Source: an uncultured Oscillospiraceae bacterium
GTDB lineage: Bacteria > Bacillota > Clostridia > Oscillospirales > Oscillospiraceae
Length of the DNA: 35,692 nt
Reading direction: 5' to 3'
Assembly: GCA_949916125.1 (NCBI GenBank)
Contig: CATLEJ010000007.1
Location: 1 to 35,692 of the forward strand
This document shows, in pieces, positions 1 to 14,136 of the stretch. Numbering within the stretch: position 1 is the first letter of the stretch; the number at the start of each line of letters is the position of its first letter. The position numbers and the translations under genes are program-made. The notes below the pieces were generated by a model. That model was not told the origin of the DNA. It was given only the letters and a program-made list of their open reading frames with translations, and ran no database searches.

Positions 1-106
1 CGGCTGAATTGTCCGGCTGTGTCGGGAGGTCGTAGGCAACCCGGCAGCCGGAAAGCAAACACACGGGCAGGCAAACAATTAAAAGTATCAGGCTTTTCCC
101 CCTCAT
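1..106 (-). CDS. Lipoprotein, N-terminal fragment (cut by window edge)
   Basis: This gene is too short for the ORF track. Reading the minus strand from an ATG at 106 gives 35 codons that run off the window without a stop. The peptide starts with MRGK, has a hydrophobic stretch and then a lipobox, LLSGC, so the mature protein should be lipid-anchored on the outer face of the membrane. A GAGGGGG Shine-Dalgarno sequence lies 9 bases before the ATG. It follows the VWA-FHA gene on the same strand after 85 bases, so it is probably the next gene of the type VII operon. Nothing of the mature domain is visible and no function can be given. Confidence 0.7.
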   Translation of the reverse strand, partial: MRGKSLILLIVCLPVCLLSGCRVAYDLPTQPDNSA

Positions 107-191
107 AGACACATCCCCCTCACAGTTTTTGCGCGCCTCCGGCACGGGGTTTTCCTTCCCGCCGCGCCCTCCGCCGCAGGGGGCGGCGGCC

Positions 192-1697
192 TCACCGGAC
201 TTCCACCAGAAGCTCCAAACGGCCCAGCTTGATGACGCTCCCGTTGGAGATCTCCGCCGCGTCCACCACCTGGATCCCATCCACATAGGTGCCGTTCCTG
301 GAATTCAGGTCCCGGATGCGGAATGTGACGCCGTCCAGGTAAATCTCGCAGTGCCTGCCGGAGACTGATCTGTCATAGTCCAACACAATCTGGTTTGCAG
401 AGGCGCGGCCAATGGATACCCTACCCTGCAGGGGGACCTCAAAGTGCCTGCTGGGGTTCGCCCGGTCCGTAAGGCTCAGCGTAATAAGGCGTTCGCTGGT
501 CATCAGGAGCACCGTCCCGCCATCATCTTCCTCGTCCTGTACAAACGTATCGTCCGCGCCGGGAAGGAACTCATCCTCTACCACCGGCTTGATCCGCTCC
601 GCCTCCCTTTTCCGGCGCAGCAGAAAATAGCAGGAAACGCCGGCGGCGGCCAAGACACACACCGCCAGCGCAATCCACGGCAGCGATTTCAGGACGGGGG
701 ACGGTTCGGGTTTGGGGTCCGGCTCCGGAACGGGGGCGGGGGTTGGATCGGGCCGGGGAGAGGGCGCGGGAGCCGGGGTTTCCGTCGGCGTAACGCTGCC
801 AAACGGCATGGTGGCTGTCAATTCTACCACAGCCCCGTCGCTGAAGGTGATCTGGACGCCCCGCGGGGCGCCGTCGCGCATGGCCTCCGGGATTATGACC
901 CGGGCGCACACCGGCAGCTCCGCGCCGCTCAGCTCCCGGGACACGGCAAGGGTATCTTCCAAGCCGGTCAGCGGCCAGCTTTTGGCATTGGTCAACCGGG
1001 ACAGGGAATACATCTCTTTGAGCGCCTGTTCGTTCCCATCCCGTTTACACCCCAATGTGTAGATGGGGATATTTCGCTCCCGCAGGCGCAGGGTCAGCTC
1101 GTCCTTGGTCAGGCCCTCCGGGTTGACGTCCATACCGTCGGAGATCACCACGATGCGGACGAATTCCTGGCCCTCCCGGGCGGCCTCCTCATCCAGGACG
1201 CCCGCCAGCGCGTCCACAAGGAACGCATACTGGTTGCTGTGCTCAATGCTGTCGATCTGGCTTTTCAGCTCGGCGTAGTTCCGGCTGTCCCGGAGTATCA
1301 CATTGAGGCCGGCGCTGAAGGTACACAAATTAAACCGTTCCCCCGGCGCGCCCCCGGCCACCAGGTCGGTAAGCAGCTGCTTGATCTTGGCCCGGTCCGT
1401 CTCGCCGATGGAAAGGGAATTGTCCACCAGCAGCCAGGTGACTACGGGGATATCGCCGTCAGCGCCGGTGACAACAGCGCCGGCCGCGCTCTGCGTCCCC
1501 ACCCGGGCCTCGGCGGACTGGTTCTGTCCGCCGTGCCGGACATAGACCAGCACGGCGTCCTGTGTGACATACCATTCCATTGCATTTGCCCCGGAAGAAG
1601 GCTGGGCGCCCCATGCCGCCGGCGCGGAGCAAAGGGCCAGCAGAACGGCGGCGGCCACACACAGGGCGCGGCCCCAGAGCCTATGCTTTCCGCTCAT
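192..1697 (-). CDS. Secreted VWA domain - transmembrane - cytoplasmic FHA protein of the type VII locus
   Basis: The ORF track starts at a TTG; the ATG at 1697, with GGAGG 7 bases upstream, is preferred (501 residues). Order of parts: signal peptide (about 1-30), VWA domain (about 83-270) with an intact MIDAS start DNSLS near residue 92, a proline-rich linker (about 303-335), a membrane helix (about 340-360), an acidic segment, and a C-terminal FHA domain (about 425-497) with IGRASAN, SGRHCEI and NSRNGTYV, all the usual phosphothreonine-binding features. The predicted topology puts the VWA domain outside and the FHA domain inside. It overlaps the upstream WXG-like gene by 17 bases, so it belongs to the same operon. 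It may be a scaffold that links a surface ligand to phosphorylated cytoplasmic parts of the secretion machine; that role is inference. Confidence 0.85.
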   Translation of the reverse strand: MSGKHRLWGRALCVAAAVLLALCSAPAAWGAQPSSGANAMEWYVTQDAVLVYVRHGGQNQSAEARVGTQSAAGAVVTGADGDIPVVTWLLVDNSLSIGETDRAKIKQLLTDLVAGGAPGERFNLCTFSAGLNVILRDSRNYAELKSQIDSIEHSNQYAFLVDALAGVLDEEAAREGQEFVRIVVISDGMDVNPEGLTKDELTLRLRERNIPIYTLGCKRDGNEQALKEMYSLSRLTNAKSWPLTGLEDTLAVSRELSGAELPVCARVIIPEAMRDGAPRGVQITFSDGAVVELTATMPFGSVTPTETPAPAPSPRPDPTPAPVPEPDPKPEPSPVLKSLPWIALAVCVLAAAGVSCYFLLRRKREAERIKPVVEDEFLPGADDTFVQDEEDDGGTVLLMTSERLITLSLTDRANPSRHFEVPLQGRVSIGRASANQIVLDYDRSVSGRHCEIYLDGVTFRIRDLNSRNGTYVDGIQVVDAAEISNGSVIKLGRLELLVEVR

Positions 1698-1992
1698 TTG
1701 CAAGCCTCCATGCCTCCAGCTCCGCGTTTCGCACCCTCACGGCAATGGTGCGGATCGCCTGGGCGATGTTCTGGAGATTCCTTGCCGTGACGTGCATATC
1801 CTCCCCCACCTTTTCGCCTTTTCTGAGATAGGCCGCTGTGCTGTCGCTTTTCCAGGCGCTGTGGATATCGCCCAGTATGCCTTCCAGGGTCACGTCCGCC
1901 GCGTTGGTAAGCCGTTTGGCGACATCCTCCAGCCGCGCCGCCTGCCCGATGGCTTTATCATAGTTAAAGTAGATTTCGGCTAAGCTGCTCAA
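1681..1992 (-). CDS. WXG100-like small helical protein (divergent, TTG start)
   Basis: This 103-residue protein is mostly helical. Its central turn AWKSDS sits where WXG100 (EsxA-type) proteins have W-x-G, so the glycine is replaced. It also lacks the C-terminal YxxxD/E signal found in most of its neighbours. The only plausible start is TTG at 1992, preceded by a weak purine-rich site; no ATG lies near the N-terminus. The stop overlaps the start of the VWA-FHA gene. Its length and place in a run of small helical genes suggest a helical-hairpin partner of another secreted protein, but without the export motif it may be carried by a partner or stay in the cytoplasm. Confidence 0.7.
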   Translation of the reverse strand: MSSLAEIYFNYDKAIGQAARLEDVAKRLTNAADVTLEGILGDIHSAWKSDSTAAYLRKGEKVGEDMHVTARNLQNIAQAIRTIAVRVRNAELEAWRLANERKA

Positions 1993-2006
1993 CCCGCCTG
2001 CCCCCT

Positions 2007-2324
2007 TTACACAATCTCGTTTGTCTTGAGCGTGGCATTTTTACTGACCGCGGCCCGCTCCGCGTCCCGGTAGATGCCCGCCATAATCAGCAGGTCCAGG
2101 GGATGCTCCTCCAACCGCCGCAGGATGAAACCGATGTCCTCCTGATAGGACGCGTAGCCCTCCCGATCGCGGGCGCCCGCATCGCCCCGCCAATACCCTT
2201 TGGTTTTGGAAGAAATCGATTGGATCCGGTCAAAACGGGCCCGAATATCCCTCACAACGCCGCTGAACTGGTCCGCCTTTGCCTCCAGCGCTTCCGGCGT
2301 TACACGTAATGTCATGTTAGCCAT
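2007..2324 (-). CDS. WXG100 family protein with LKTNEIV tail
   Basis: A 105-residue EsxA-like protein, a substrate or partner of the type VII secretion ATPase. It has a first helix, a YWRGDA turn (W-x-G), a second helix and a YRDAE export motif (YxxxE). ATG at 2324 has AGGAGGGG just upstream. It ends in LKTNEIV, exactly the same last seven residues as the WXG100 protein at 9314-9628, although the codons differ. It lies 8 bases downstream of the previous small gene, consistent with co-translation. Confidence 0.85.
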   Translation of the reverse strand: MANMTLRVTPEALEAKADQFSGVVRDIRARFDRIQSISSKTKGYWRGDAGARDREGYASYQEDIGFILRRLEEHPLDLLIMAGIYRDAERAAVSKNATLKTNEIV

Positions 2325-2332
2325 AGCCCCTC

Positions 2333-2638
2333 CTACACCCTGATGGATGAAACAATCTGGGAAACCGCGCTTTCACACCGGTCATATTCCGCCCGGGCGT
2401 CGGACGTCTTGTTTGTAAACGCCCGCATCGTCTGGATCAACATCTGCAGCCGCCCCACATCGTCCCGGACAGCGGCGGAGAACGCCTGCTTGGCGCTGCC
2501 CTCCCACATGGTCTCCAGCTGCTCCAGCAGGCCTAACAGCTGATCCGCGTCATCGCCGAGCAGCTTCAGTTCCGCCGCAATTTCCTCAATATCCCCTTTT
2601 AAAATGCCGGTATTCACCTCAATGATATTTGATGCCAT
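2333..2638 (-). CDS. WXG100 family protein
   Basis: A 101-residue two-helix protein of the EsxA/WXG100 family. The central turn is MWEGSA (W-x-G) and a YxxxE motif, YDRCE, follows the second helix, so both parts of the type VII export signal are present. ATG at 2638 has GGAGGGAAGGG upstream. Its first 20 bases overlap the end of the preceding gene, which implies translational coupling. It is probably secreted as a dimer with itself or with a neighbouring small helical protein. Confidence 0.87.
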   Translation of the reverse strand: MASNIIEVNTGILKGDIEEIAAELKLLGDDADQLLGLLEQLETMWEGSAKQAFSAAVRDDVGRLQMLIQTMRAFTNKTSDARAEYDRCESAVSQIVSSIRV

Positions 2639-3020
2639 AGCCCTTCCCTCCGCTGTCGATCTGAAGTGTTTTCAATATGCCTGTGTACTTATCTTCGCTC
2701 CCGCCGCCCGGCGCCGCAGCTGTCCCCCGGGCCGGGCCCGGGCAGTCCTCCAAGGCGTCTGCGTTTCGTCGCTCCGCGCCGGAATACAGCCCGGAAATTT
2801 CCCCCAGCGCAGACGACAGGCCCGCCACCCGCGCAGCCACAAGCGCCATGGATTCTTCCATCCTGGAAATGGCGGAACGGCACTCATCCATCCCTGTGAG
2901 CTGCCGGAGCTGGCGCCGTACCGCCTCCGCCTCATCCCGGCACTGCCCCACTGTTTGGGACAGCTCCAACAGTTTCCGGCTGCCCATATCCACTTGCTGT
3001 GTGCAAAACTTGATCCGCAT
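2619..3020 (-). CDS. Small helical protein with YxxxE motif, type VII locus
   Basis: The track ORF begins at 3233, but the upstream part reads as spurious GC-rich peptide. The ATG at 3020 has AAGGGGGG before it and gives 133 residues. The protein is helical with no W-x-G turn, and carries YSGAE (about 79-83), which fits the YxxxD/E export motif, followed by a low-complexity Pro/Gly tail. It sits between EsaB and a run of WXG100 genes. I do not recognise a named family. It may be a WXG100-like partner or a small LXG-type substrate. Confidence 0.65.
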   Translation of the reverse strand: MRIKFCTQQVDMGSRKLLELSQTVGQCRDEAEAVRRQLRQLTGMDECRSAISRMEESMALVAARVAGLSSALGEISGLYSGAERRNADALEDCPGPARGTAAAPGGGSEDKYTGILKTLQIDSGGKGYGIKYH

Positions 3021-3120
3021 GGGCAGCCCCCCTTGATTGATCCGTCCGGCCCCAGGCGCGCCGCGGCCCGTTCCGTCCGCGTCAAACGGCAGCGCGTACA
3101 GGACAGGCGCCATATGGGCC

Positions 3121-3369
3121 CTACACCAGGATGAGCTCCGAGCTGCCGGTGATCCCATAATCGCCCAGGCACCGGTCCCTGTCACACTGCAGGCCGCCCC
3201 CCACATAGCACAGCACCATCTCGTCCAAATCACCGTGAAACGCCAGGTGCTCCTTTTGGATGACCAGCTCCACCACTTCCTCGATCAGGTCGGACACCTT
3301 TGCCTTTTCCTCCACCGAAAAATTGTAGACCTTTTCCAGGGCGGGCACCTTGATATCCACAATCATCAT
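3121..3369 (-). CDS. esaB: EsaB/YukD-like ubiquitin-fold protein
   Basis: An 82-residue protein from the ATG at 3369; the upstream TTG used by the track is unlikely because a GGAGGGG site lies 6 bases before this ATG. The sequence opens MMIVDIKVPALEK, a beta-strand opening of the YukD type, followed by a helix with an acidic core and a C-terminal strand ending SELILV. That order and size fit YukD/EsaB, small ubiquitin-like components of the Firmicute type VII system that act in the cytoplasm and are needed for or regulate secretion. It lies directly downstream of the EssC gene, a common arrangement. Confidence 0.82.
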   Translation of the reverse strand: MMIVDIKVPALEKVYNFSVEEKAKVSDLIEEVVELVIQKEHLAFHGDLDEMVLCYVGGGLQCDRDRCLGDYGITGSSELILV

Positions 3370-3443
3370 GTCTTTCCCCTCCAATCACAATCTGCCAGCG
3401 CATACTCCGAAGCCTGCGCAATGGGTCCGTGCGGCAGCGCCCT

Positions 3444-3463
3444 CCCCCTGTCAGCACAGGGGG
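3444..3463 (-). other. Short perfect hairpin over the EssC stop codon
   Basis: An 8-bp perfect stem (CCCCCTGT/ACAGGGGG) with a CAGC loop contains the EssC stop codon. No T run follows, so it is not a standard terminator. It may protect or tune the mRNA between EssC and EsaB; that is inference. Confidence 0.4.
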
Positions 3464-6400
3464 ACGACAACCTTAACCAGCCGCTCATCCCTATTTTCGC
3501 TTGGGATTACGCCGATCCCCGGCTTCATGGAGCGGCCCTCATCCTGATAGCCCACGTTCTCAAAGGAAAACAGCTTTTGTTCATTGAACCGGCCGCCAAA
3601 CCGGATGCCGGACTGGTACCCGCGCATATTGTCAAAGCACAGATGGCCCATCAGCTCCGCCTCATCGTGGTCGTTTACCTCGGCATACAGGAAAACATTA
3701 TAACCCTTCCCGCGCTCGCACAGCGTCTCAAACAGGTCCTTCGCATCGAACGCCGGGGACTCCGGATCGTACAGCATTCCAATCAGGCCAGTCATATTCC
3801 CCAAGAAAATATCAATCCGCCGGTTTGCCAACGCCGCGGTAAACAGCTCCTGATCTGTGGCCCGGCGGTCAAGGCATTCCTTTTTGATCCCAGCCCTGCG
3901 CACTAACTCGCCGTGGATCCGGGCCAGGAGGTCATACACCCCCTGCCCATCCGTGCCGTGCGGCAGCGACTGTTCCTCGGCAATCTTCGTAAAGCGTTCC
4001 CCGCCGGGCTCCAGGATGACAACCTCATCCCCCCGGTCCAGGCCGGTGAGCATCAGGTTTTCCATCAGTATGGATTTTCCAGACTTTTTGGCGCCTGTGA
4101 TCAAAAAGACATAGTTCTTGATCAAGTCGAAGGAGTAGATATCCGCATACTTAAAGTCATATCCCACGGGCATGATATCCGCGGCGCCCAGCGCCTGCGC
4201 ATACTCGGGAAGCTGCGTGAAAAGCTCCCGGGTGGGATTGGCGGGGATTTGGGGGATCGCGCGGGCTTTTGGCCCCGAATATGCCGCGTTCATTGCGGCC
4301 ACGGACAGCTGGAGCAGTTCCGTGCGCTCGGGGGCATTTTCCGCATGGGCCGCCAAAGCGGTCTGGAATTCCAGAATGCGCCCGTCACAGTACATCAGGC
4401 CGCGGCCATGCGTCCTGTTTTCCGGCAGCACCGGAGGCCGGACTACGCGCAGCACGTCCGCATAGGCGAAGGCGTCCTGCATTTCCAGCGCGATCCCAGT
4501 GCGGAAGGTCTCCGCCAGCCGGCCGGGCAGCTCCTGCATCCCAACCCCCCCGGCGGAGACCAGCAGGAATACGCCATAGCTGTTGCCCTCCTTGGCGATG
4601 CGGTTCATGATGGCCCCGTACGCCTCGCCAGTCTTTTCGTGGAAGCTGCCATAATTATCGATCACGATGAGAATCGCGGGCACGTTCCACCCGTCATGGC
4701 TGACATAGTCCTCAAAGCTGGTGCCGGCAAAGCGGGTCTTCCGTTCATCCAGGATGCGGCCCATCATGGCGAAGAACTTGTCAAAGTGGTCGGTCTCCAG
4801 GTCCGTCTCATCCATATATCCGCCCATATGCTTCAGGCCGGAGAAGACAGAGAGCATCTTGGCGCTGAAATCCAGGCAGTAGACGTTCAGCAAATCCGGG
4901 GTATACGACGAGACCAGGGAGTAGATGATCGTCTGGAGCAGCGTGGATTTTCCGGTGGACACCGTGCCGATGACCATGTGGTGCCCGCCGGTGGCGAAGT
5001 CTACCGAGGCGGGGATCTGCGCCTGGTTGGCCGGGTCGTCCGCCATGCCGATCACCGCGCTGAGGTGGAAGCGCCGGGGCCGGTCCTGCCATTTTTCCCC
5101 ATTGAACGCATTCCGGGTGAACGCGCCCAAAGAGTCCAGATACAGGTGGTCGGGCAGCACGGGCAGCCAAAGTTTCCGCACTTTCTCAATGCCCATCGCC
5201 TCCGCGGTCCTGCGCAGGTAGTCCACGGTTACCTCCATCTGGGACCGGGTCTTGACCTCCGGGATCCGTACGCCTGTGCGGGAAGCTGTGCGGATGATCC
5301 GCTCCGTCAGCCGCCCCCCGCTTTCCTCCCCGGACAGCGCGCGATAAAGGGCGCAGAAATCATCCATGCGGGCAGTATTAAACTGGTTGTTCTCAAAATC
5401 CGGGTGGAGCTCCTGGATTTTTTGATAAAAGAGATCCTGGAAGTCGCGCATTTCACTGAACACAAAATCCGGTGCGACGGCAAAACTCCCGGACTTTCCC
5501 TCGGCCCAGTGCAGCGCGTCCAGCAGCTGGCCGACCCAGCGCCGTTTCAGCTCCTCTTTGCGCTTGACCCTTGCGTGGTTGCCCGCCAAATCCACCTTGC
5601 CGGTGGCGCTGAGCATCTGCGCGATGGTCAAGCCGCTGCCGCCCAAGTCCTCGTCATAATCCGCGCCGGACCAGCCGCTCTGGAACAGCTCAAAAATCTC
5701 GTCGTTTCCAACCTGCAGGTAGCAGCGGCCGGCCTGGGTCAGATAGGCGGCCTCCGTGCGATGGAGCACGTCCAGGGAGTCCTGACGGTCCTGAACCCTC
5801 AGGCACAGGCGGAATTTACTGTTTGCCAGGATGTTCTCATCCACATTACCCGACGGGCGCTGGGTGGACAAAATCAGGTGCACCCCCAGGCTCCGGCCCA
5901 CCTGGGCAACGCTGATGAGTTCTTTCATAAACTCTGATTCTTCCCGCTTGAGTTCGGCAAACTCATCAATAATAATGAACAGGTGGGGCACCGCCTCTAC
6001 CGCGTCCCCGTTTTTGTAAAGGGCGGTATAGCCGTTGATGCTGTTGACGCCATACTCCGTGAAAATCCGCTGCCTCCGGCGGTTCTCCGACTGGATGGAC
6101 ACCATGGCCCGCTTTACCTGGTTCCCGGACAAGTTTGAAATAGAGCCGATCATATGGGGCAGGCCCTCAAAGAGGTTGGCCATGCCGCCGCCCTTGTAGT
6201 CAATGATAAAGAAGCCGATGTCCTCCGGGCTGAAATTGACCGCCAGGGACAGGATATAGGTCTGGAGCGTCTCCGACTTGCCGGATCCAGTGGTGCCGGC
6301 CACCAGGCCGTGGGGGCCATGGTACCGCTCATGTATATCCAGGTAACAGGGGGTATTCCCGCTGCGGAACCCCACCAGGGCCTTCATGGTCGCAATGGTG

Positions 6401-8430
6401 TTGGATTTTTTCCAGCGCTCCGGCACATTGAGCTCCTCGGGGCGCTGAATCCCAAACATATCGAAAAAGGTCAGGGTGCCGGGGATTTCGCCGTCCTGCT
6501 CGGATTCCAACACCTCAATGCGCCCCAGCGATTTGGACAGCCGCCGGAGGCTTTCATGGGAAACGGCGTCAAACTCCAATTCCGTGCCGTAAGAACGGCC
6601 GCATTTCGTATCATAAACGCCCCGGTAACCGTCGTCATTCTCGATGATATACTCGCATTCATTGGGCAGCCGCTCAGGCTTGTCCGCCAAAATCACCGTG
6701 GTCAACCCCACATCCGCCCCGCGGCCAAACACATAATGGGCGATTGGTTCGCCGTCCAGCAGTTCCGGCTCGGCCACAAAGAGGATAAACCGCGGCTTTG
6801 TCACCCGTTTTTTCTCATTTTCCTCTTCACTGCGGACCCGCATAACCTGATCCAGCGCATGGAGCACATCGCCCATTTCGTCTTTGCTGGTGGCGATATA
6901 GCGGATTTTTTTATCCCCGGACCACACATGGGGAAGCCACATGGCAAAATTCCAGGCATTCCGGTCAATATCGCTGGCGCCGTCATAGACCACGCAGATT
7001 TTCACATCTGTATAAGAATTTGCGGTGGCAATCTGCGCAATCATAGCTTGGGCCACAGTGATCGCGCCTTTGCGTTCCTCCCCGCCCGCAATCCCCACCA
7101 GCCTGTGGGCGAGGAGATCCACTGTGACGGGGACATTTTTCAGCATCTCAAAGTTTTCGCGGATCACCTGGGGCTTTTCGGCCAGCGTGTCGTTGATCAT
7201 CGAGAAGCGTTCCTTGGGGACGGAGATCTCCGCCTGGAAGGGGAGCTCCCCAACGCCCAAGCGCACGCCCAGGAAATCGTCATGGGCGGGGTTCCGGTTC
7301 CACAGCAAGGGGCAGCTCCCGTCCATCGCGCAGCATTCCTCTGCGGCCGGATAGCGCTCCCGCAGCGCATCCGCGTTTTCGTGATAGGCTTTTTCAATCC
7401 GGTTGCGCGTCTGGATCAGGTATTCGCTGTAGCTCTCAAACCGCCGGTTTTCCTCCTGCCTGCGGGTTTTTTTGGCGTAGCGCATATTGACAAGGGCCCA
7501 AACGGCGCCGATCAGGGCAGAGGCAAGGGCGGTGACCATCCCCATGTACATGAGCGCCCCGGAGGCGGCCCCGCCCCGGCGGCTGGCCCAGACAGACAGC
7601 GCGCTGCCCAAAAGCATGGGGATGGCCATCGTCAGCGCCGGGCCGATGGTCATAGCCAGCGGCGCCTCCCGGCTGTCCGGGGGCGGGGGCGGCGCCTCGA
7701 TCTCAAAGGGCTCTGTGTTCAGCTTCTTCAGATTGCGCGGGGAGCGCCGGAACAAGACCTTGTTCCCGCCGCCTGTCCCCGCCGGGGACGCGAGCGCCTG
7801 GATCTCCCCGCCGCTCAGCCTGGGCATGGAGACCGTCAAATTGTCGCACTGTTCAATGGCGACCATATTGCCGAGGTAGATGATGTTCAGCCGCATGATC
7901 CGGATGCTGTCGCCATAATTCAGGATGGTGCTGCCATATACCCGCCTGAAATTCACGTAGGTCCCGTTTTTGGAACTGTCGTAGAGCACCGCTTTGCCGT
8001 CCTGCATTTTAATTGAGCAGTGATCGCCGGTAACCAGCTCGTTGCAGTACTGGATATCATTTCCGGGGTTCCGGCCGATCTTGATCTGGTCAACTTCAGA
8101 CAGGGCATATTTCTGGTATACCGCAAAGGGATTGACCTGCTCAAAGCAGATGACTGCGATTCGCAGGCCCTGCCCCGTCTCCGCCTCAAACTTCAACCCG
8201 TCGCTGATTGTGACGCTGTCCTGCCGCAGCACGCCCTTTTCGGGGATAAGAGCGGCATTTCCGGCGGTCAGATGCCAGACGCCGTCCTGCCGGTCCAATG
8301 TAAAGGTGACATCCCGGTCTAAGGCGAACAGCTCCCGCTCGATCTGGATTTTCAAGGTTTCCTCGCCCCGCTCGGGAAGCGTTACCTCGCGAAAGCCCTT
8401 TTGGCTGTAAATCGACAATACCATTCCCAT
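3451..8430 (-). CDS. essC: EssC/YukB-type FtsK/SpoIIIE ATPase, type VII secretion motor
   Basis: ATG at 8430 (1659 residues), with AGGGG 9 bases upstream, is preferred over the track's TTG at 8439. Domain order: an N-terminal degenerate FHA-like segment (about 1-100), a second FHA domain (about 115-170) with IGRNPGND and SSKNGTYV, two membrane helices (about 260-318), then three FtsK-like ATPase modules. Walker A motifs are GTTGSGKSE (Lys about 718), GTVSTGKST (Lys about 1161) and GAKKSGKSI (Lys about 1452). Module 1 has a clear Walker B, LFIIIDE; module 2 has IVIDNY, without the glutamate, so module 1 is probably the main active ATPase. Length and order match EssC of the Firmicute T7SSb, which recognises WXG100/LXG substrates and drives export. 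Confidence 0.96.
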   Translation of the reverse strand: MGMVLSIYSQKGFREVTLPERGEETLKIQIERELFALDRDVTFTLDRQDGVWHLTAGNAALIPEKGVLRQDSVTISDGLKFEAETGQGLRIAVICFEQVNPFAVYQKYALSEVDQIKIGRNPGNDIQYCNELVTGDHCSIKMQDGKAVLYDSSKNGTYVNFRRVYGSTILNYGDSIRIMRLNIIYLGNMVAIEQCDNLTVSMPRLSGGEIQALASPAGTGGGNKVLFRRSPRNLKKLNTEPFEIEAPPPPPDSREAPLAMTIGPALTMAIPMLLGSALSVWASRRGGAASGALMYMGMVTALASALIGAVWALVNMRYAKKTRRQEENRRFESYSEYLIQTRNRIEKAYHENADALRERYPAAEECCAMDGSCPLLWNRNPAHDDFLGVRLGVGELPFQAEISVPKERFSMINDTLAEKPQVIRENFEMLKNVPVTVDLLAHRLVGIAGGEERKGAITVAQAMIAQIATANSYTDVKICVVYDGASDIDRNAWNFAMWLPHVWSGDKKIRYIATSKDEMGDVLHALDQVMRVRSEEENEKKRVTKPRFILFVAEPELLDGEPIAHYVFGRGADVGLTTVILADKPERLPNECEYIIENDDGYRGVYDTKCGRSYGTELEFDAVSHESLRRLSKSLGRIEVLESEQDGEIPGTLTFFDMFGIQRPEELNVPERWKKSNTIATMKALVGFRSGNTPCYLDIHERYHGPHGLVAGTTGSGKSETLQTYILSLAVNFSPEDIGFFIIDYKGGGMANLFEGLPHMIGSISNLSGNQVKRAMVSIQSENRRRQRIFTEYGVNSINGYTALYKNGDAVEAVPHLFIIIDEFAELKREESEFMKELISVAQVGRSLGVHLILSTQRPSGNVDENILANSKFRLCLRVQDRQDSLDVLHRTEAAYLTQAGRCYLQVGNDEIFELFQSGWSGADYDEDLGGSGLTIAQMLSATGKVDLAGNHARVKRKEELKRRWVGQLLDALHWAEGKSGSFAVAPDFVFSEMRDFQDLFYQKIQELHPDFENNQFNTARMDDFCALYRALSGEESGGRLTERIIRTASRTGVRIPEVKTRSQMEVTVDYLRRTAEAMGIEKVRKLWLPVLPDHLYLDSLGAFTRNAFNGEKWQDRPRRFHLSAVIGMADDPANQAQIPASVDFATGGHHMVIGTVSTGKSTLLQTIIYSLVSSYTPDLLNVYCLDFSAKMLSVFSGLKHMGGYMDETDLETDHFDKFFAMMGRILDERKTRFAGTSFEDYVSHDGWNVPAILIVIDNYGSFHEKTGEAYGAIMNRIAKEGNSYGVFLLVSAGGVGMQELPGRLAETFRTGIALEMQDAFAYADVLRVVRPPVLPENRTHGRGLMYCDGRILEFQTALAAHAENAPERTELLQLSVAAMNAAYSGPKARAIPQIPANPTRELFTQLPEYAQALGAADIMPVGYDFKYADIYSFDLIKNYVFLITGAKKSGKSILMENLMLTGLDRGDEVVILEPGGERFTKIAEEQSLPHGTDGQGVYDLLARIHGELVRRAGIKKECLDRRATDQELFTAALANRRIDIFLGNMTGLIGMLYDPESPAFDAKDLFETLCERGKGYNVFLYAEVNDHDEAELMGHLCFDNMRGYQSGIRFGGRFNEQKLFSFENVGYQDEGRSMKPGIGVIPSENRDERLVKVVVPLC

Positions 8431-8478
8431 CTTGAACAACCCCTGTTTTCTCTCTGTAATTTCCCAAATCCTGAGCCG

Positions 8479-9045
8479 TTACGCTTTGAGCAGTTTAAAC
8501 TGGATCTCCGACGTCCCCATCCGGATATGATCCCCATTGTTCAGATAGATGCCGCCGGCACTGACGATCACCGACGTCTTCCCCCGTACCAGCACTGTTC
8601 TTGCCTCCGACAGGCTCCTCACGCAGGGACGCTTCCCATTCATGCGTATCTCGCAGTGCGTTTCCGCCACGCCGTCATAGCGGAGCACCAGCTGGTTGTC
8701 CGCCCCGCTGCCGATGGTGAGGGGCTGGCCGGCACGGAAAACATATTTTCGCCTGGAATATGTGGACAGCTCCACCAGCTCGATCATCCACGAGGCGGAG
8801 GCCTCCTGTTCCCTGACCGCCTTATCATCCCAGCGGACTTCAATCGGGCCCTGCGGCCCGGAGGGGCTCACGCCCGCCTGCGGGTTGCGCAGCGCCTCAT
8901 TGAGGGCCTCGTCCCGCCGCTTGAGCTGGGATATTTCTTCAAACCGCTTTCGGCGGGCCCTGCGTTTTAAGGATATGGACAGCGATACGATGAGGATGAC
9001 GGCTGCCGCGGCGGCCACCGCTATGATAAGGGGCTTTTGCAGCAT
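8479..9045 (-). CDS. Membrane-anchored protein with degenerate FHA domain
   Basis: A 188-residue protein. An N-terminal membrane helix (about 7-27) is followed by a strongly basic stretch (KRRARRKR), which puts the rest inside the cell. The C-terminal 90 residues have an FHA outline: LTIGSGADNQL, ETHCEI and a late strand DHIRMG. Key phosphothreonine-binding positions are changed: the usual GR is GS, the S-x-x-H is ETH, and there is no N-G-T. It may have kept the fold but lost phosphopeptide binding. ATG at 9045 has AAGGAG 9 bases upstream. It lies immediately upstream of essC and may help assemble the membrane complex in place of or beside EssB; that is inference. Confidence 0.78.
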   Translation of the reverse strand: MLQKPLIIAVAAAAAVILIVSLSISLKRRARRKRFEEISQLKRRDEALNEALRNPQAGVSPSGPQGPIEVRWDDKAVREQEASASWMIELVELSTYSRRKYVFRAGQPLTIGSGADNQLVLRYDGVAETHCEIRMNGKRPCVRSLSEARTVLVRGKTSVIVSAGGIYLNNGDHIRMGTSEIQFKLLKA

Positions 9046-9076
9046 ACCCGCTCACTCCTTTTTCGGCGATTTGTCA

Positions 9077-9238
9077 GAACCTGTATTCACAGCCGAAACC
9101 GCCGAATGGCCGAGGGATTTTCCCGTCAGGCAAGGCAAATTTTCGCAGGAATAATGGTGTTTATTTCCAGAAAATTTAACGCGGCATGGCGGGAAAAGAC
9201 CCGGCCAGACGGTGGATTGAGGTTGTGAATACAGGTTC
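9077..9238. mobile_element. MITE-like element, 15-bp terminal inverted repeats, TCA target duplication
   Basis: The ends are exact inverted copies of GAACCTGTATTCACA (9077-9091 and 9224-9238). Directly outside both ends is TCA (9074-9076 and 9239-9241), a 3-bp duplication of the TNA type used by some IS5-family elements. The inside is also roughly palindromic: both arms carry TGGCCG, TTTTCCCG and AAATTTTC in matching order. At 162 bp it has no room for a transposase. It lies between the WXG100 pair and the FHA gene and shows no coding sequence. Confidence 0.75.
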
Positions 9239-9254
9239 TCAAGATGCCAACATA

Positions 9255-9282
9255 CCCGAAGCGCCCTGCGGGGCGCTTCGGG
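9255..9282 (-). terminator. Hairpin after the WXG100 pair (possible partial terminator)
   Basis: A perfect 12-bp stem (CCCGAAGCGCCC with its complement) around a 4-base loop lies 32 bases past the WXG100 stop at 9314. The following minus-strand sequence, TATGTTGG, is only weakly T-rich, so read-through into the FHA and EssC genes is likely. Such a step-down would leave the WXG100 pair more highly expressed than the machinery. Confidence 0.5.
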
Positions 9283-9313
9283 TGACTGTCACAGGAATTG
9301 CCGCCCCCCCCGG

Positions 9314-9628
9314 TCAGACGATCTCGTTGGTTTTCAGGGCGCTGGCGGTCTGGATGTTGGCCTGTTCCGCGGTCTGGTAGACCCGGGCCATGTCCTGGAG
9401 GTCCGTGGTGTGTTCCTGGATCATCCTGTGGAGCTTCTGCATATCCTGCTGGAGGCCTTTGAGCTTGTTGTAGTACCCCATGGCGGCCTCGCCGGCCCAG
9501 GTGGAACTGAGCTGGTTGACGATGTCCATCATGTTCTGGGTCAGGTTGTTTACATTGGTGTCGCTGGTCTGGAACTGGCTGGACATAGAGATCAGCTTTT
9601 CAGGGGTTACCCTCAAATTACCTGTCAT
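9314..9628 (-). CDS. WXG100 family protein (EsxA-like) with LKTNEIV tail
   Basis: A 104-residue helical-hairpin protein with the turn TWAGEA (W-x-G) and YQTAE (YxxxE) after helix 2. ATG at 9628 has AAGGAG 8 bases upstream. It ends in LKTNEIV, shared with the protein at 2007-2324. It is paired with the WXG100 gene at 9691-9987, 62 bases upstream. The two are likely the main secreted pair of the system, comparable to EsxA/EsxB, and sit before the hairpin at 9255, which could set their level above that of the membrane genes. Confidence 0.92.
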   Translation of the reverse strand: MTGNLRVTPEKLISMSSQFQTSDTNVNNLTQNMMDIVNQLSSTWAGEAAMGYYNKLKGLQQDMQKLHRMIQEHTTDLQDMARVYQTAEQANIQTASALKTNEIV

Positions 9629-9690
9629 AATAGATTCTCCTTTTCACGGATGGTTTGTTTTACTGCAAAACGGCGCATTCGGCCTGCCGG

Positions 9691-9987
9691 TTACTTCCGC
9701 TCGGTGGCAATGCTGGTGGCCTTCTGCTCGGCCTCCTCGTATTTCCGCGCATCCTCCTCCAGCGCCTGGATGTAGAGGTCGATGTTGGCCGCAAAGCGGT
9801 CCATCTTATCCTTGTCGCCGTTAAACGCCATACGGAACGCCTTCTGGGCCTCGCCCTCCCACATCTGGGCCAGCTCGCTCTCATAGCCGACCATATTCTG
9901 GATTTCGCCCCGCAGCTTGGCATTGTACTGCCGGAGCATTTCCGCCTTGTTCCTGAGTTCGCTGGGGGTTACCTTAATTTCCGCCAT
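9691..9987 (-). CDS. WXG100 family protein (EsxB/EsxA-like)
   Basis: A 98-residue protein with classic WXG100 features: MAEIKVTPSEL opening, MWEGEA turn, and YEEAE (YxxxE) near the C-terminus. ATG at 9987 with AGGAGG upstream. It precedes the second WXG100 gene at 9314-9628 and probably forms a heterodimer or homodimer exported by EssC. A weak TATAGT box lies about 75 bases upstream, so an internal promoter cannot be excluded. Confidence 0.93.
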   Translation of the reverse strand: MAEIKVTPSELRNKAEMLRQYNAKLRGEIQNMVGYESELAQMWEGEAQKAFRMAFNGDKDKMDRFAANIDLYIQALEEDARKYEEAEQKATSIATERK

Positions 9988-10118
9988 TGTTAGTTCCTCC
10001 TGTTTTTAAGTTGTTTTTATCTTAACCGTGCATCTCCTGATGCTGCTGCAGCACACTATACACGGCCAGAGCCTGTTTCCTGAATGCATTTGGGCGCAGA
10101 CGGACGGCGCCGTTGGGA

Positions 10119-10697
10119 CTACGGCCGCCGGGCAATCTTCACGATGAGGAAAACGCACAGCGCCGCAATCAAAAAGAAGGCGATCGATTTCAGCGCACGC
10201 CCGGCGGCCGTGTCGCCGTTATCATTCAAGCACCGGTATTGCAGCGCTGCCGTTTGGAGGCCGGCCGCCTGGCCGGCCTGGGCGCCGGTCAAGCCGGAGG
10301 CCATACCGTACAGCGCTACGGCTTCCCCCCGGGCCAAGCGCTCGGCCTTCGCGCCGCAGACGCGGACGGCCATGGAAAAGGGCGCCTCCCCCTCCGGCCC
10401 CACGGTGACCAGATAATAGGTATACCTGGTGGAAATAAAGGGGAGAAAAGAGCCATGGAGGCTGGCGGAGCCGAGGCCGGGCCCAATGGAATATTCCCCC
10501 GCCCCCAATGTGTACCAGGTCCCTGTCCGGCCGTCCAGCCCCCCCGCCCCCGTATGCCCCAGGTCCACGGGCTTGTCCAGGGGCAGGGAGATCACCGCGG
10601 CAAATATGGACAGCAGGGCAAAGAGGCCCAGCGCGGCATAGGTCAGTCCCATATTCTTCCGTTTCGCCCCTGTCCCGTCACCGCTTTTGTTTTTCAT
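10119..10697 (-). CDS. Two-helix membrane protein next to the LXG-like effector (candidate immunity/accessory protein)
   Basis: The track ORF starts at 10832, but the ATG at 10697 gives a cleaner 192-residue protein starting MKNKSGDGTG. It has a membrane helix at about 16-38, an outside domain of roughly 125 residues rich in Gly, Tyr and Thr, and a second helix at about 167-188 ending in basic residues, so both ends should be cytoplasmic. It overlaps the DUF4176 gene by 20 bases and follows the effector candidate, the position where immunity genes often lie. A membrane immunity protein would suit an effector with a hydrophobic C-terminal half. I do not recognise a named family, and an accessory role in export is equally possible. 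Confidence 0.7.
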   Translation of the reverse strand: MKNKSGDGTGAKRKNMGLTYAALGLFALLSIFAAVISLPLDKPVDLGHTGAGGLDGRTGTWYTLGAGEYSIGPGLGSASLHGSFLPFISTRYTYYLVTVGPEGEAPFSMAVRVCGAKAERLARGEAVALYGMASGLTGAQAGQAAGLQTAALQYRCLNDNGDTAAGRALKSIAFFLIAALCVFLIVKIARRP

Positions 10698-10968
10698 CGT
10701 AAAACGCGGAAAGCCGGTTGATGAAATTTTCCCGTTCCTGATCCTCGAAGCCCCGGAACACAACTTCCTCAATCCCATCATGCTCAAAAAAGAATTGCAG
10801 CTGTTCCCCCATGTTGCCCTCGGGATAGACAACGCCGATGTAATCGTGCTCCCGGCCGGTGGCAGTGTCCGTCTGCTTGATGCCGAACACCATCACCTTT
10901 TTCCTGCCCTCCCTCAGGCGGACCACAGACCCGATGGGCAGCAAATCCTTTATGCCGCTTCCTTCCAT
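10678..10968 (-). CDS. DUF4176 family protein (LXG effector-associated)
   Basis: The ATG at 10968 is preferred (96 residues), since AAGGAGGAG lies just upstream; the track start at 10989 would place this site inside the gene. The sequence opens MEGSGIKDLLPIGSVVRL, followed by KKVMVFG, DYIGVVYPEGN and a C-terminal FEHDGIEEVVFRGF, the usual order of DUF4176 proteins. Members of this family are commonly encoded in LXG effector operons and have been implicated as accessory or targeting factors for export. Here it lies 57 bases after the effector candidate and overlaps the membrane-protein gene, which supports a shared role. Confidence 0.85.
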   Translation of the reverse strand: MEGSGIKDLLPIGSVVRLREGRKKVMVFGIKQTDTATGREHDYIGVVYPEGNMGEQLQFFFEHDGIEEVVFRGFEDQERENFINRLSAFYDEKQKR

Positions 10969-11025
10969 AACAGCTCCTCCTTGTTCCATAATCTTAACCC
11001 AGCTTACTCGTATCCCCGGGAAGGC

Positions 11026-12177
11026 TTACCACCCGCCGCTTACGGCGGCCCTGCCCCAGCGGCAGCCGCTGAAGAAATCGGAAATTCCCTCTTTCACGCT
11101 ATGGAGGCCGGCGCTCACCTTGTCCGCCACATACCCGACGCCGTCCTTAACCGTGTCCACCGCCTTGGTCACAACAGGTCCCACATGGTCCACAAATTGA
11201 TCCAGCCCTTCAGAAATCTTGCCGCCTGCCCACTCGAGGCCATCGCAGATCCCGTCCGACGCCCACTCGGTCCAGCTGGTATGCGACCCGCCGGTGATCC
11301 ATGTAATGGTCGTGTCCAGCACCCAGTCCGCCGCGAATGTGGCTGCGACCGTAGCCGCCGCCACCCCCAGGGAAACCGGGTTTCCGAACAGCGCCACCGC
11401 GGCGGCGCCGACAATATGGGTGATGACCGCGCCCTCCACCACATCGATCCCGGTCTCCACCAGGGTTTCCTCCCAAAAGCGGCCCTGGGTCCAGCCATCC
11501 GCGCCAAACTCATCCGCGTTGCTCATAAAGCTGCCCAGGAAAGAAGCGCCCCAGTTGGCCGCGGCCCCAACCTTCTTGCCCTCTGTGCTGAAATCAAAGA
11601 CGTCATCCCAAAGGCCGGGGGCCTCTTCCATCCGGTCGAAGCCGTCCGCGCCGAAGCCGAACAGCTCCTGAAACCATTCCGCCCGCGGTTTGTCCAGGAT
11701 CACTTTCCCGGTATCGCCGATCAGTTCAATCAGGTCCTCGGATATTTTGCCCTTGTCGCCGTCCCATAAGCTGACAAGGATCCCAGCGGGGCCCAGCAGC
11801 TCCGACAGTTCCTCCTTTAAGAATTCTTCGACGTCAAATTTGGGGTAATCGATGGGCGCCTGGGCGTTGCCCGCCCACTGCGCCGGCAGCTTCTCCGCCG
11901 CAACGCGCTCCAGGTTCCCGCCCTCTGTCCGTTCGTACTGGGCGATGGCCTGCTCCAGGCCCAGGCACAGCGCACGGATGCCGGCCGCCTCTTGATTGAG
12001 CTGCTCCGCGGCTTCCATCAAGCGGGCGCTGATTGCGTCCTGGCCCCCAATCCTGTAGTTCAGGCCGGATCGGATGTCTTTTACCTCCTGGCACAGCTCG
12101 TTTTGAAGCCTTTCTAACTTGGCATACTCAGGGAGTACCTTTTTTGCCTTTACAGGTTCAATGAATATCCTCACCAT
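11026..12177 (-). CDS. LXG-like type VII effector candidate
   Basis: ATG at 12177 (383 residues) has GGAGG 5 bases upstream; the track start at 12222 is less likely. Residues 1-95 are a long helical hairpin ending in YERTE (81-85), matching the YxxxD/E export motif of type VII substrates. A middle region (about 110-240) is acidic and aromatic. Residues about 246-290 form a hydrophobic Gly/Ala-rich segment (VEGAVITHIVGAAA then GVAAATVAATFAADW), and the tail (300-383) is amphipathic with several glycines. No known nuclease, NADase or protease motif is visible. The layout fits a small LXG-type toxin that acts on membranes, but this is inference. It is the first gene after the strong promoter and is followed by DUF4176 and a membrane protein. 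Confidence 0.7.
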   Translation of the reverse strand: MVRIFIEPVKAKKVLPEYAKLERLQNELCQEVKDIRSGLNYRIGGQDAISARLMEAAEQLNQEAAGIRALCLGLEQAIAQYERTEGGNLERVAAEKLPAQWAGNAQAPIDYPKFDVEEFLKEELSELLGPAGILVSLWDGDKGKISEDLIELIGDTGKVILDKPRAEWFQELFGFGADGFDRMEEAPGLWDDVFDFSTEGKKVGAAANWGASFLGSFMSNADEFGADGWTQGRFWEETLVETGIDVVEGAVITHIVGAAAVALFGNPVSLGVAAATVAATFAADWVLDTTITWITGGSHTSWTEWASDGICDGLEWAGGKISEGLDQFVDHVGPVVTKAVDTVKDGVGYVADKVSAGLHSVKEGISDFFSGCRWGRAAVSGGW

Positions 12178-12434: not shown

Positions 12435-13184
12435 TTATCCATGGCAGTTGCGCCACTCCCCAGGGGAGACCCCCTCCAGCTTCTTGAACACCCGGGAGAA
12501 GTGGGCGGTGTCGGCATAGCCCACCTGCTCGGCGATCTCGCTGATGCGCAGGGCAGGATCCTCCAGCAGCTCCTTGGCGCGGCGCATCCGCTCGGCGTTC
12601 AGCAGGTCGTAAAACGTCTGGCCCAGGTGCTTGTTCAGCAGCTTGCTGAGGTGCCACTGGCTGACGAAGCAGTGGTCGGCCACCTCCTGGAGGGAGAGCT
12701 TTGACCCGCTGTGCTCCGCGATGTAGGCCCGGGCCTGACGGACGATGAAGCTGTTGGCGGCGGAGTCGGGCGGTTCCTCCGCCTTTTCCGACTGGGGCAG
12801 GCGGTCCAGCGCGGCGGTCATGCAGGCCAGGGCCTCCTCCAGCTCGTCCATTTTGGAGGGCTTGAGCAGAAACCGGGCCACCCCCAGCCGGATGGCCCGC
12901 TGGGCGTACTCGAAGTCCCGGTAGCCGGTGAGCACCGCGATCTGCATCCGGGGGAACTCCGCCCGCAGCCCCGCCAGCATGGTCAGGCCGTCCTCCCCGG
13001 GCATTTTGATGTCGGTGAACAGGATATCCGGGCGGTGCTGCCGGATGGCCTGGGCGCCGGAGGCGGCGTCGCAGGCCGTGGCCGCCACCTGGCAGTCGTG
13101 GCCCGCCCAGTCCACCACCTGGCGCAGGCCCTCCACAATCAGGGATTCGTCGTCAACCAAAACCACCTTGTACAGTTCCGTCAC
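12435..13184 (-). CDS. AraC-type response regulator of the sugar-uptake locus
   Basis: Receiver domain (about 5-125) with VDDE, phospho-acceptor Asp about 58 in FTDIKMP, and conserved Thr and Lys (VLTGYRDFEYA, LLKPSKM), then an AraC DNA-binding domain (about 150-247) with two helix-turn-helix units and the signature ISEIAEQVGYADTAHFSRVFKK. The track start at 13343 runs through the upstream permease gene. A GTG at 13184 gives 249 residues, but a CTG at 13175 has a better spaced GGGAGG, so the start is unsure. It is the likely partner of the YesM-type kinase at 16602-18305, the two genes bracketing the transporter. A TATAAT box lies about 60 bases upstream. Confidence 0.93.
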   Translation of the reverse strand: MTELYKVVLVDDESLIVEGLRQVVDWAGHDCQVAATACDAASGAQAIRQHRPDILFTDIKMPGEDGLTMLAGLRAEFPRMQIAVLTGYRDFEYAQRAIRLGVARFLLKPSKMDELEEALACMTAALDRLPQSEKAEEPPDSAANSFIVRQARAYIAEHSGSKLSLQEVADHCFVSQWHLSKLLNKHLGQTFYDLLNAERMRRAKELLEDPALRISEIAEQVGYADTAHFSRVFKKLEGVSPGEWRNCHG

Positions 13185-13245
13185 CTCCCGGTTTTCGGTC
13201 AAGCGTCCCCGTCCCCAAGCCGGGCGAAGGGGACCGCCTGAACTT

Positions 13246-13275
13246 ATTATACCTGAACTGAGGGGAAGCGCGCAA
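13246..13275 (-). promoter_or_regulatory. Possible promoter for the response regulator gene
   Basis: TTGCGC (13275-13270), 18 bases, TATAAT (13251-13246) on the minus strand. The -10 box is perfect and the -35 box poor. A short direct repeat, GTTCAGG/GTTCAGG, flanks the -10 region and could be a regulator contact. Confidence 0.5.
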
Positions 13276-13278
13276 GCC

Positions 13279-14136
13279 TTATCCCTTGATGGCGCCGGCG
13301 GTGAGCCCCTTGACGATGTGCTTTTGCAGCAGGATGTAGACAACCAGCACCGGCACCACGATCAACACCACGGAGGACGCCATCAGGCCGTAGTCCACCC
13401 CGGCCTGGGAGCTGATCTCGTTGAGCAGCAGGGTGATGGTTTTCTCCCTGGGCACCCGGAGGAAGAAGTTCTGGGTGAACAGGTCGTTGTAGCTCCACAG
13501 GAAGGAGAAGATGGCCACCGTGGCGAAGGAGGACTTGGCCGCCGGGATGATGATGTGGAAGTACACCTGGAACACGTTGCAGCCGTCCACATAGGCGCTC
13601 TCCTCCAGCTCGATGGGCACCGATTCGATGAAGCCCATCAGCACGATGATGGCAAAGCACAGGTTGCCCGCGATCTGGGGCAGGATGACGGCCAGCAGGG
13701 ACAGCCAGCGGTTGCCGCTGCTGGCGATGCCCCAGGCGGCCTCCATGCGGAACACCGGGATGATGGTGGAGAACACCGGGAACATCATCCCCGCCATGAT
13801 GAGGCTGTAGCACAGCCCCCGCAGTTTGAACTTGAAGCGCACCAGCCCGTAGGCCGCCAGCCCCGCGATGATCACCACCGCGATGGTGACGGCGACGGAC
13901 ACGATGAGGCTGTTCATGTAGGCGTTGCCGAAGTCGAAGCGGTCCATGGCCTTGGCGTAGTTGTCGCCGGTCAGACCGCTGCCCGGCAGGGGAATGGAGA
14001 AGGAGTCCTTGCGGATCAGCCCCTTGTCCCGGAAGGAGTTCAGGATGACCCACACGAAGGGGTACAGGGTGGTCAGGGCCCAAAAGATCAGCACGATGTA
14101 GGTGCATATCTTGGCGGGCGATACTTTTTTCCGCAC
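13279..14136 (-). CDS. Carbohydrate ABC transporter permease (MalG-like)
   Basis: A 285-residue inner-membrane permease with about six membrane helices. GTG start at 14136 with AAGGGGGG 6 bases upstream. The binding-protein-dependent transport loop that contacts the ATPase is at about 185-205, in EESAYVDGCNVFQVYFHI, matching the EAA motif of MalG-type permeases. It follows the other permease with a 12-base gap. No ATP-binding subunit is encoded here, so the importer probably uses a shared MsmX-type ATPase from elsewhere, as is common in Firmicutes. Confidence 0.96.
   Translation of the reverse strand: MRKKVSPAKICTYIVLIFWALTTLYPFVWVILNSFRDKGLIRKDSFSIPLPGSGLTGDNYAKAMDRFDFGNAYMNSLIVSVAVTIAVVIIAGLAAYGLVRFKFKLRGLCYSLIMAGMMFPVFSTIIPVFRMEAAWGIASSGNRWLSLLAVILPQIAGNLCFAIIVLMGFIESVPIELEESAYVDGCNVFQVYFHIIIPAAKSSFATVAIFSFLWSYNDLFTQNFFLRVPREKTITLLLNEISSQAGVDYGLMASSVVLIVVPVLVVYILLQKHIVKGLTAGAIKG

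Follow-up and report, generated by a model that had tools for sequence, protein, structure and literature searches.

Type VII secretion systems (T7SSs), a form of which serves some Gram-positive bacteria to poison competitors, have mostly been studied in their a and b forms, in which EssB or EccB/D/E surround the ATPase. The locus analysed here occupies the first ~12.2 kb of a 35,692-nucleotide stretch (the window) from an uncultured Oscillospiraceae bacterium, and combines an EssC-type ATPase with WXG100 proteins and separate FHA-domain proteins. The window is contig CATLEJ010000007.1 (C7) of a 2.76-Mb draft genome (GCA_949916125.1, G000; 239 contigs, 94.8% complete). In T7SSb, the FHA domains of EssC lack phosphate-binding residues and bind the pseudokinase EssB (PMC10765036; PMC11217815). 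Further subtypes, T7SSc to T7SSj, were described by Garrett et al., 2024 (PMC11217815), who already proposed possible regulation of T7SS subtypes by kinases and FHA domains. The locus is best read as a system of this kind, with none of the described subtypes matched exactly. It is not a T7SSb, and it probably represents a subtype distinct from T7SSb that is linked to phosphorylation through kinase, phosphatase and FHA proteins.

The FtsK-type ATPase EssC scores 1002 bits with TIGR03928, has all three Walker A motifs intact (residues 711, 1154 and 1445) and is accompanied by five WXG100 proteins, a combination that identifies a T7SS. A profile built from the EssC sequences of the window, L001 and L002 gives 1800 to 2800 bits with full-length relatives and at most ~1000 bits with other EssCs in the class and family samples; a first contig scan with strict patterns had recovered two relatives only, and whole-genome profile searches did better. 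In a 61-row tree, 14 clade members including the window form one group with a support of 100, and the EssB-bearing T7SSb EssCs (L. fermentum, G416, G701 and G820) form a separate group. Forcing the two groups together is rejected (approximately unbiased (AU) test, p = 1.7e-71). This tree comes from a quick LG+G4 search, its support values are SH-aLRT only, and the clade was designated with an earlier tree already in view. EssC of the window is 70.5% identical to that of the sister G849. The phosphothreonine motif of the EssC FHA domain is retained in the window, and across the clade its H and NG residues are present in 14/14 members, S/T in 13/14 and Arg in 5/14, whereas four EssB-bearing EssCs have lost all of these residues (H, NG, S/T and R). 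A plasmid search yielded only distant T7SSb and T7SSa sequences and no close relatives of this EssC. One genome, G008, carries an EssB-bearing T7SSb (C17), a sister EssC of the clade (L161, C14) and an EssC-free VWA-FHA island (C4).

The original prediction recorded the lack of EssA, EssB and EsaA correctly and nevertheless assigned the locus to T7SSb, a label that both the EssC tree and the missing proteins contradict. No match to EssA (PF10661) is present in the whole G000 assembly, with a positive B. subtilis control. EssB (PF10140) is absent from G000 and from four clade genomes (G467, G468, G733 and G734) and is detected in the B. subtilis control, G416, G008, G701 and G820. EsaA (TIGR03929) is likewise absent from G000 and these four clade genomes. 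In EssB-bearing genomes the TIGR03929 matches fall below the cut-off, and weak matches also occur in genomes without EssB (G066 and the Lactococcus and Corynebacterium controls), so such matches do not prove EsaA, while absence is still informative. None of the three proteins is found at any inspected clade locus, including the contiguous G849 locus on a 66-kb contig, by queries that detect distant EssB at 1e-25; an ordinary EssA/EssB/EsaA set, which would make this a T7SSb with extra FHA genes, is thus found neither in the genome beyond position 1 nor at these loci. A first screen covered 28 genomes (24 from the order with an EssC, plus G008, G078 and those of L001 and L002), and EssB exceeds the cut-off in just 2 of them; in a class screen it does so in 2 of 24. 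In these Clostridia, EssC thus commonly occurs without EssB.

Read along the minus strand, from ~12.2 kb to position 1, the T7SS genes encode an LXG-like protein, a DUF4176 protein, a protein with two transmembrane (TM) segments, two WXG100 proteins, TM-FHA, EssC, EsaB and a helical hairpin, followed by three WXG100 proteins, VWA-TM-FHA and a lipoprotein whose gene is present for its first 35 codons. Pfam and TIGR matches with synteny confirm the whole predicted inventory (EssC, EsaB, the LXG-like protein, six small helical proteins, the two FHA proteins and the lipoprotein). The window was also expected to end before the locus does. The locus indeed goes on, but the contig itself ends at position 1, cutting the lipoprotein gene. 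The features are as follows.

1–106, minus strand: lipoprotein N-terminus of 35 residues with signal peptide and lipobox Cys, read from the sequence; probable remainder on contig C106 (L040:9039-9677)
192–1697, minus strand: VWA-TM-FHA protein (Pfam), single TM before the FHA domain; homologues at the G849, G901, G1024 and L002 T7SS loci
1681–1992, minus strand: WXG100 protein (PF06013, 3e-5), fourth in the conserved series; best hits at the same position in relatives
2007–2324, minus strand: WXG100 protein, position 3 (PF06013, 3e-7; synteny)
2333–2638, minus strand: WXG100 protein, position 2 (PF06013, 4e-5; synteny)
2619–3032, minus strand: small helical-hairpin protein without WXG motif, position 1 (AlphaFold2); syntenic in most relatives
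3121–3369, minus strand: EsaB/YukD-like ubiquitin-fold protein (PF08817, 9e-4, sub-threshold); matches the G849 and L002 EsaB
3451–8430, minus strand: EssC-type ATPase with N-terminal FHA region, two TMs and ATPase domains (TIGR03928, clade membership and FHA motif)
8479–9045, minus strand: TM-FHA protein with N-terminal TM and cytoplasmic degenerate FHA domain (PF00498, 7e-7); orthologue in G849
9314–9628, minus strand: WXG100 protein, position 6 (PF06013, 6e-15); upstream of EssC in the window and G849
9691–9987, minus strand: WXG100 protein, position 5 (PF06013, 2e-14; synteny)
10119–10697, minus strand: protein of the LXG module with two hydrophobic (TM) segments and no Pfam match, perhaps with an immunity or accessory role
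10678–10989, minus strand: DUF4176 protein, LXG-secretion factor (PF13780, 9e-25; LXG-export role according to PMC11481500)
11026–12174, minus strand: LXG-like candidate substrate with helical N-terminus and Gly/Ala-rich hydrophobic C-terminus; no Pfam match, homologues beside DUF4176

An AraC-type response regulator gene and an ABC-type permease-like gene, both apparently unrelated, are located just past the T7SS genes (12435–14136).

The comparison of gene order across relatives reveals a syntenic core. In most clade members, EssC is followed in the same order by a LytTR regulator, a protein of ~220 residues, EsaB, the helical hairpin and five WXG100 proteins. The five WXG100 proteins of the window match PF06013 with E-values from 6e-15 to 4e-5, and numbers 5 and 6 are located upstream of EssC beside the TM-FHA gene in the window and in G849. 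In comparisons among four members, the small proteins best match the protein at the same position elsewhere in 64/66 cases. The one small protein that is not a WXG100, at position 1, is modelled by single-sequence AlphaFold2 as a hairpin of two helices (residues 3–43 and 48–95) with modest confidence, at a mean predicted local distance difference test (pLDDT) score of 63. EsaB matches PF08817 only at 9e-4, under the cut-off; its identity follows from its gene position and from its match to the EsaB of a relative, which itself scores 1.4e-7. The LytTR gene follows EssC in nine relatives. The window contains neither this gene nor the ~220-residue gene, and ~80 bases separate the end of EssC from the start of EsaB. 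The ~220-residue gene, located between LytTR and EsaB in most relatives (e.g. L147:6015-6677 and L002:15689-16366), evolves fast, with 10–20% identity. Its product is possibly an EspG-like chaperone, an identity that was tried and not adopted because the protein has no Pfam or PDB match and its fold model (pLDDT 38) is unusable.

Two membrane proteins with FHA domains accompany this core. The VWA-TM-FHA protein comprises a signal peptide, a predicted extracellular VWA domain (PF00092, 6e-10), a Pro-rich linker, one TM segment and a predicted cytoplasmic FHA domain (PF00498, 2e-18) with a canonical phosphothreonine motif. It is encoded at the locus in 5/14 clade members (the window, G849, G901, G1024 and L002); in L002 it lies ~2.4 kb upstream of a kinase gene on the same contig. 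Outside the clade, G512, G524, G551 and G491 have VWA-FHA genes next to those for WXG100, DUF4176 or kinase proteins. No relatives were found in viral contigs. The metal-ion-dependent adhesion site (MIDAS) of the window VWA domain retains DxSxS and an acidic residue and lacks the threonine found in relatives, so the proposed role in surface adhesion is doubtful. In the window, G849 and G1024, the TM-FHA gene immediately precedes EssC. Its product (PF00498, 7e-7) has an orthologue in G849 (203 bits) and weaker ones in G1024 and G1062. As its FHA domain is degenerate, with no GR and no NG, it is unlikely to act as a normal phosphothreonine reader, and it may be structural.

The locus likely continues on contig C106 of the same genome. 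C106 starts mid-gene with a piece of a lipoprotein that matches the L002 lipoprotein, encoded after the WXG100 run (27% over 192 residues, 2e-20). The genes that follow on C106 share one strand and specify an Mbeg1-like lipase extended at its C-terminus, a kinase-TM-LRR-Big_2 protein, an RCC1/SLH protein and a PP2C phosphatase. Two features point to the join: each of the two contig ends truncates a lipoprotein-type gene, and in G901 the genes for VWA-FHA, LXG, DUF4176, lipoprotein (186 bits) and lipase (681 bits) are contiguous in this order; no literal overlap longer than 8 bases exists between the window and C106.

The C106 kinase retains the Lys, HRDIKPGN and DFG motifs and has one TM; its ectodomain is of the LRR plus Big_2 kind, not the PASTA type that had been expected. 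The PPM phosphatase on C106 matches PF13672 at 6e-13, and in G849 a PPM gene is next to VWA-FHA. A kinase-like gene of one of two types occurs on the same stretch in ten other clade members, and a PPM phosphatase gene in G734, G733, G849, G1024, G1002 and G1014. A kinase and a phosphatase on the likely continuing contig, together with EssC residues that T7SSb has lost, argue for the predicted link to Ser/Thr phosphorylation. Two genes upstream of the L002 EssC, a kinase-TM-YARHG protein (L002:6569-8656) has lost both HRD (HQN) and DFG (GFG); this single-pass pseudokinase is EssB-like in state and topology, with no match to the EssB profile. The three Pkinase matches of G000 are on C106 and C104. 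The latter carries a second phospho-signalling island (L039, G000:C104:1-9992) of PPM-TM, PPM, trypsin-TM-FHA, Zn-ribbon kinase and Zn-ribbon kinase-TM-beta proteins. It is provisionally treated as separate from the locus, as its genes match an EssC-free island type of other genomes; such islands with a VWA-FHA gene occur in G008, G815, G699, G659, G545, G716 and G733.

The LXG-like gene has homologues beside DUF4176 in G849, G901, G1002 and G733. LXG-like and DUF4176 proteins form a known T7SS substrate module, in which DUF4176 proteins are needed for LXG export and, in streptococci, a TM protein occurs (PMC11481500). The C106 lipase (PF11187, 4.5e-9, residues 102–198 of 566) has a helical C-terminus, as read from its sequence only, and thus resembles TslA, the reverse-type lipase of S. 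aureus, which is accompanied by the immunity lipoprotein TilA (PMC10730906). As in TslA/TilA, an N-terminal lipase domain, a C-terminal helical domain and a lipoprotein gene are found together (C106, L002 and G901), and the lipoprotein gene precedes the lipase in L002 and G901 as well; the difference is that the lipase here belongs to a different T7SS subtype. This resemblance suggests that the lipoprotein, previously counted as membrane machinery, is probably the immunity protein of the following lipase. In G734 (L090), arrays of LXG, DUF4176 and Mbeg1-like lipase genes occur, and three consecutive lipase genes lie downstream of its WXG100 series.

Compared with T7SSb (Ess/Yuk), the locus shares the EssC architecture, EsaB, the LXG-DUF4176 module and the reverse-type lipase, and differs in the missing EssA, EssB and EsaA, in its EssC clade and in the retained FHA motif. 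That it is an ordinary T7SSb whose remaining genes were lost to fragmentation, as a contig edge in an assembly of 239 pieces might suggest, is extremely improbable given the genome-wide absence of EssA and EssB, the absence of EssB from four relatives, the contiguous G849 locus and the EssC tree. Among the subtypes of PMC11217815, T7SSe/f/j come nearest in gene composition, and LytTR provides a link to T7SSi. T7SSe/f/j share an FHA-bearing EssC with phosphothreonine-motif residues, EsaB, WXG100 proteins, a PPM phosphatase (TsxF), a separate FHA protein and the absence of EssA, EssB and EsaA; T7SSe and T7SSj also share a kinase-TM protein (TsxD). In the window's genome, TsxF- and TsxD-type genes are present on C106, the likely continuation of the locus. 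T7SSi shares an FHA-bearing EssC and a LytR-like regulator (TsiN), which corresponds to LytTR in most relatives and is absent from the window. These kinase, phosphatase, FHA and regulator genes favour the view that the locus diverged within an already named subtype (T7SSe, f, i or j). This view is somewhat unlikely in light of the differences. DUF6382 (PF19909), the mark of the FHA protein TsxJ in T7SSe/f/j, is missing in G000 and G468, and G467 has it on contigs other than that of EssC. The giant Ig-like TsxI was not seen at the inspected loci, with no TsxI profile search made. Conversely, five ordered WXG100s, VWA-TM-FHA, TM-FHA and, in most relatives, LytTR distinguish these loci from T7SSe/f/j, and the main text of PMC11217815 does not describe a VWA-TM-FHA protein. 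T7SSi, as described there, has no WXG100 in a fixed position and poorly kept FHA motifs, whereas the clade has a fixed order and mostly kept motifs. For an EspG-like chaperone, as expected of T7SSi (TsiG) and T7SSh, the ~220-residue protein of relatives is a tentative candidate. T7SSc shares a VWA protein, a kinase and a PPM phosphatase, but its TscE is described as a cytoplasmic VWA protein with no TM reported, and its TscC has no FHA domains. T7SSc, T7SSg and T7SSh, with ATPases lacking FHA domains, are ruled out by the FHA domain of the window EssC (PF00498, 3e-13).

The role of the FHA proteins can be read in other ways. It is unlikely that VWA-TM-FHA and TM-FHA form a separate phospho-signalling cassette inserted in the operon and are not secretion parts. 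Full-length VWA-FHA homologues do occur in islands of the order kinase, PPM, FHA, PPM, VWA-FHA with no EssC nearby (G008, G815, G699, G659, G545 and G733:C22), and C104 carries a similar island without VWA-FHA; yet five clade members have VWA-FHA within or next to their EssC/WXG100 run, it is found near WXG100, DUF4176 or kinase genes in the four non-clade genomes named above, and TM-FHA directly precedes EssC in three members. Quite unlikely is the proposal that FHA proteins replace EssB as structural, phosphorylation-independent adaptors, in the way FHA-EssB contacts of T7SSb are thought to work. The degenerate TM-FHA domain (the G849 orthologue was examined too) and the binding of EssB by T7SSb FHA domains without phosphate-binding residues (PMC10765036) agree with it, but EssC and VWA-FHA keep the motif here and kinase and phosphatase genes accompany the locus; the kinase-TM protein, rather than the FHA adaptors of the original prediction, is the better topological counterpart of EssB. 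Several observations also weigh against a phosphorylation-linked subtype. The join between the window and C106 rests on the split gene and synteny, not on reads. The kinases belong to two families, the C106 type in the window's genome, G734, G733 and G962 and a TPR type in the others; TPR-type kinases keep the catalytic Asp but read H-S/C-D and DFN, and the G962 kinase, on the opposite strand, looks dead (HRA), which indicates that kinase activity varies among the loci. In 9/14 members, EssC has lost the Arg of its FHA motif. Most members have no VWA-FHA at the inspected locus, which makes this protein accessory rather than core, and it has homologues in islands without EssC.

We infer phosphorylation, every protein-protein contact and secretion itself in the following model of the phospho-linked system. 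EssC would be the motor and channel, EsaB a small cytoplasmic partner, and the WXG100 proteins would serve the LXG and lipase substrates as secreted partners or as chaperones. The kinase-TM-ectodomain protein probably takes the topological place of EssB and would dock on the EssC FHA domain in a phosphothreonine-dependent manner. Phosphorylation would switch this contact, or the contact of VWA-FHA with a phosphorylated partner, and the PPM phosphatase would reset the mark. From its position outside the membrane, the VWA domain may sense or bind a target at the wall, and VWA-TM-FHA, as an outside sensor and inside phosphothreonine reader, could couple an external cue or cell-wall contact to channel assembly or activity. 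The most specific form of the model, an undescribed Clostridia subtype with five ordered WXG100s in which VWA-TM-FHA and the kinase/phosphatase pair gate EssC through phosphothreonine-FHA contacts and take the part of EssB, is tentative and on the doubtful side.

With these loci, EssB-less systems extend beyond named genomes into many uncultured gut Clostridia, and the series of five WXG100 proteins offers a clean case for pairing small partners with substrates. As the clade retains EssC and EsaB and has kinase, phosphatase and FHA proteins instead of EssB, it offers a natural test of EssC FHA function and of phospho-gating of secretion.

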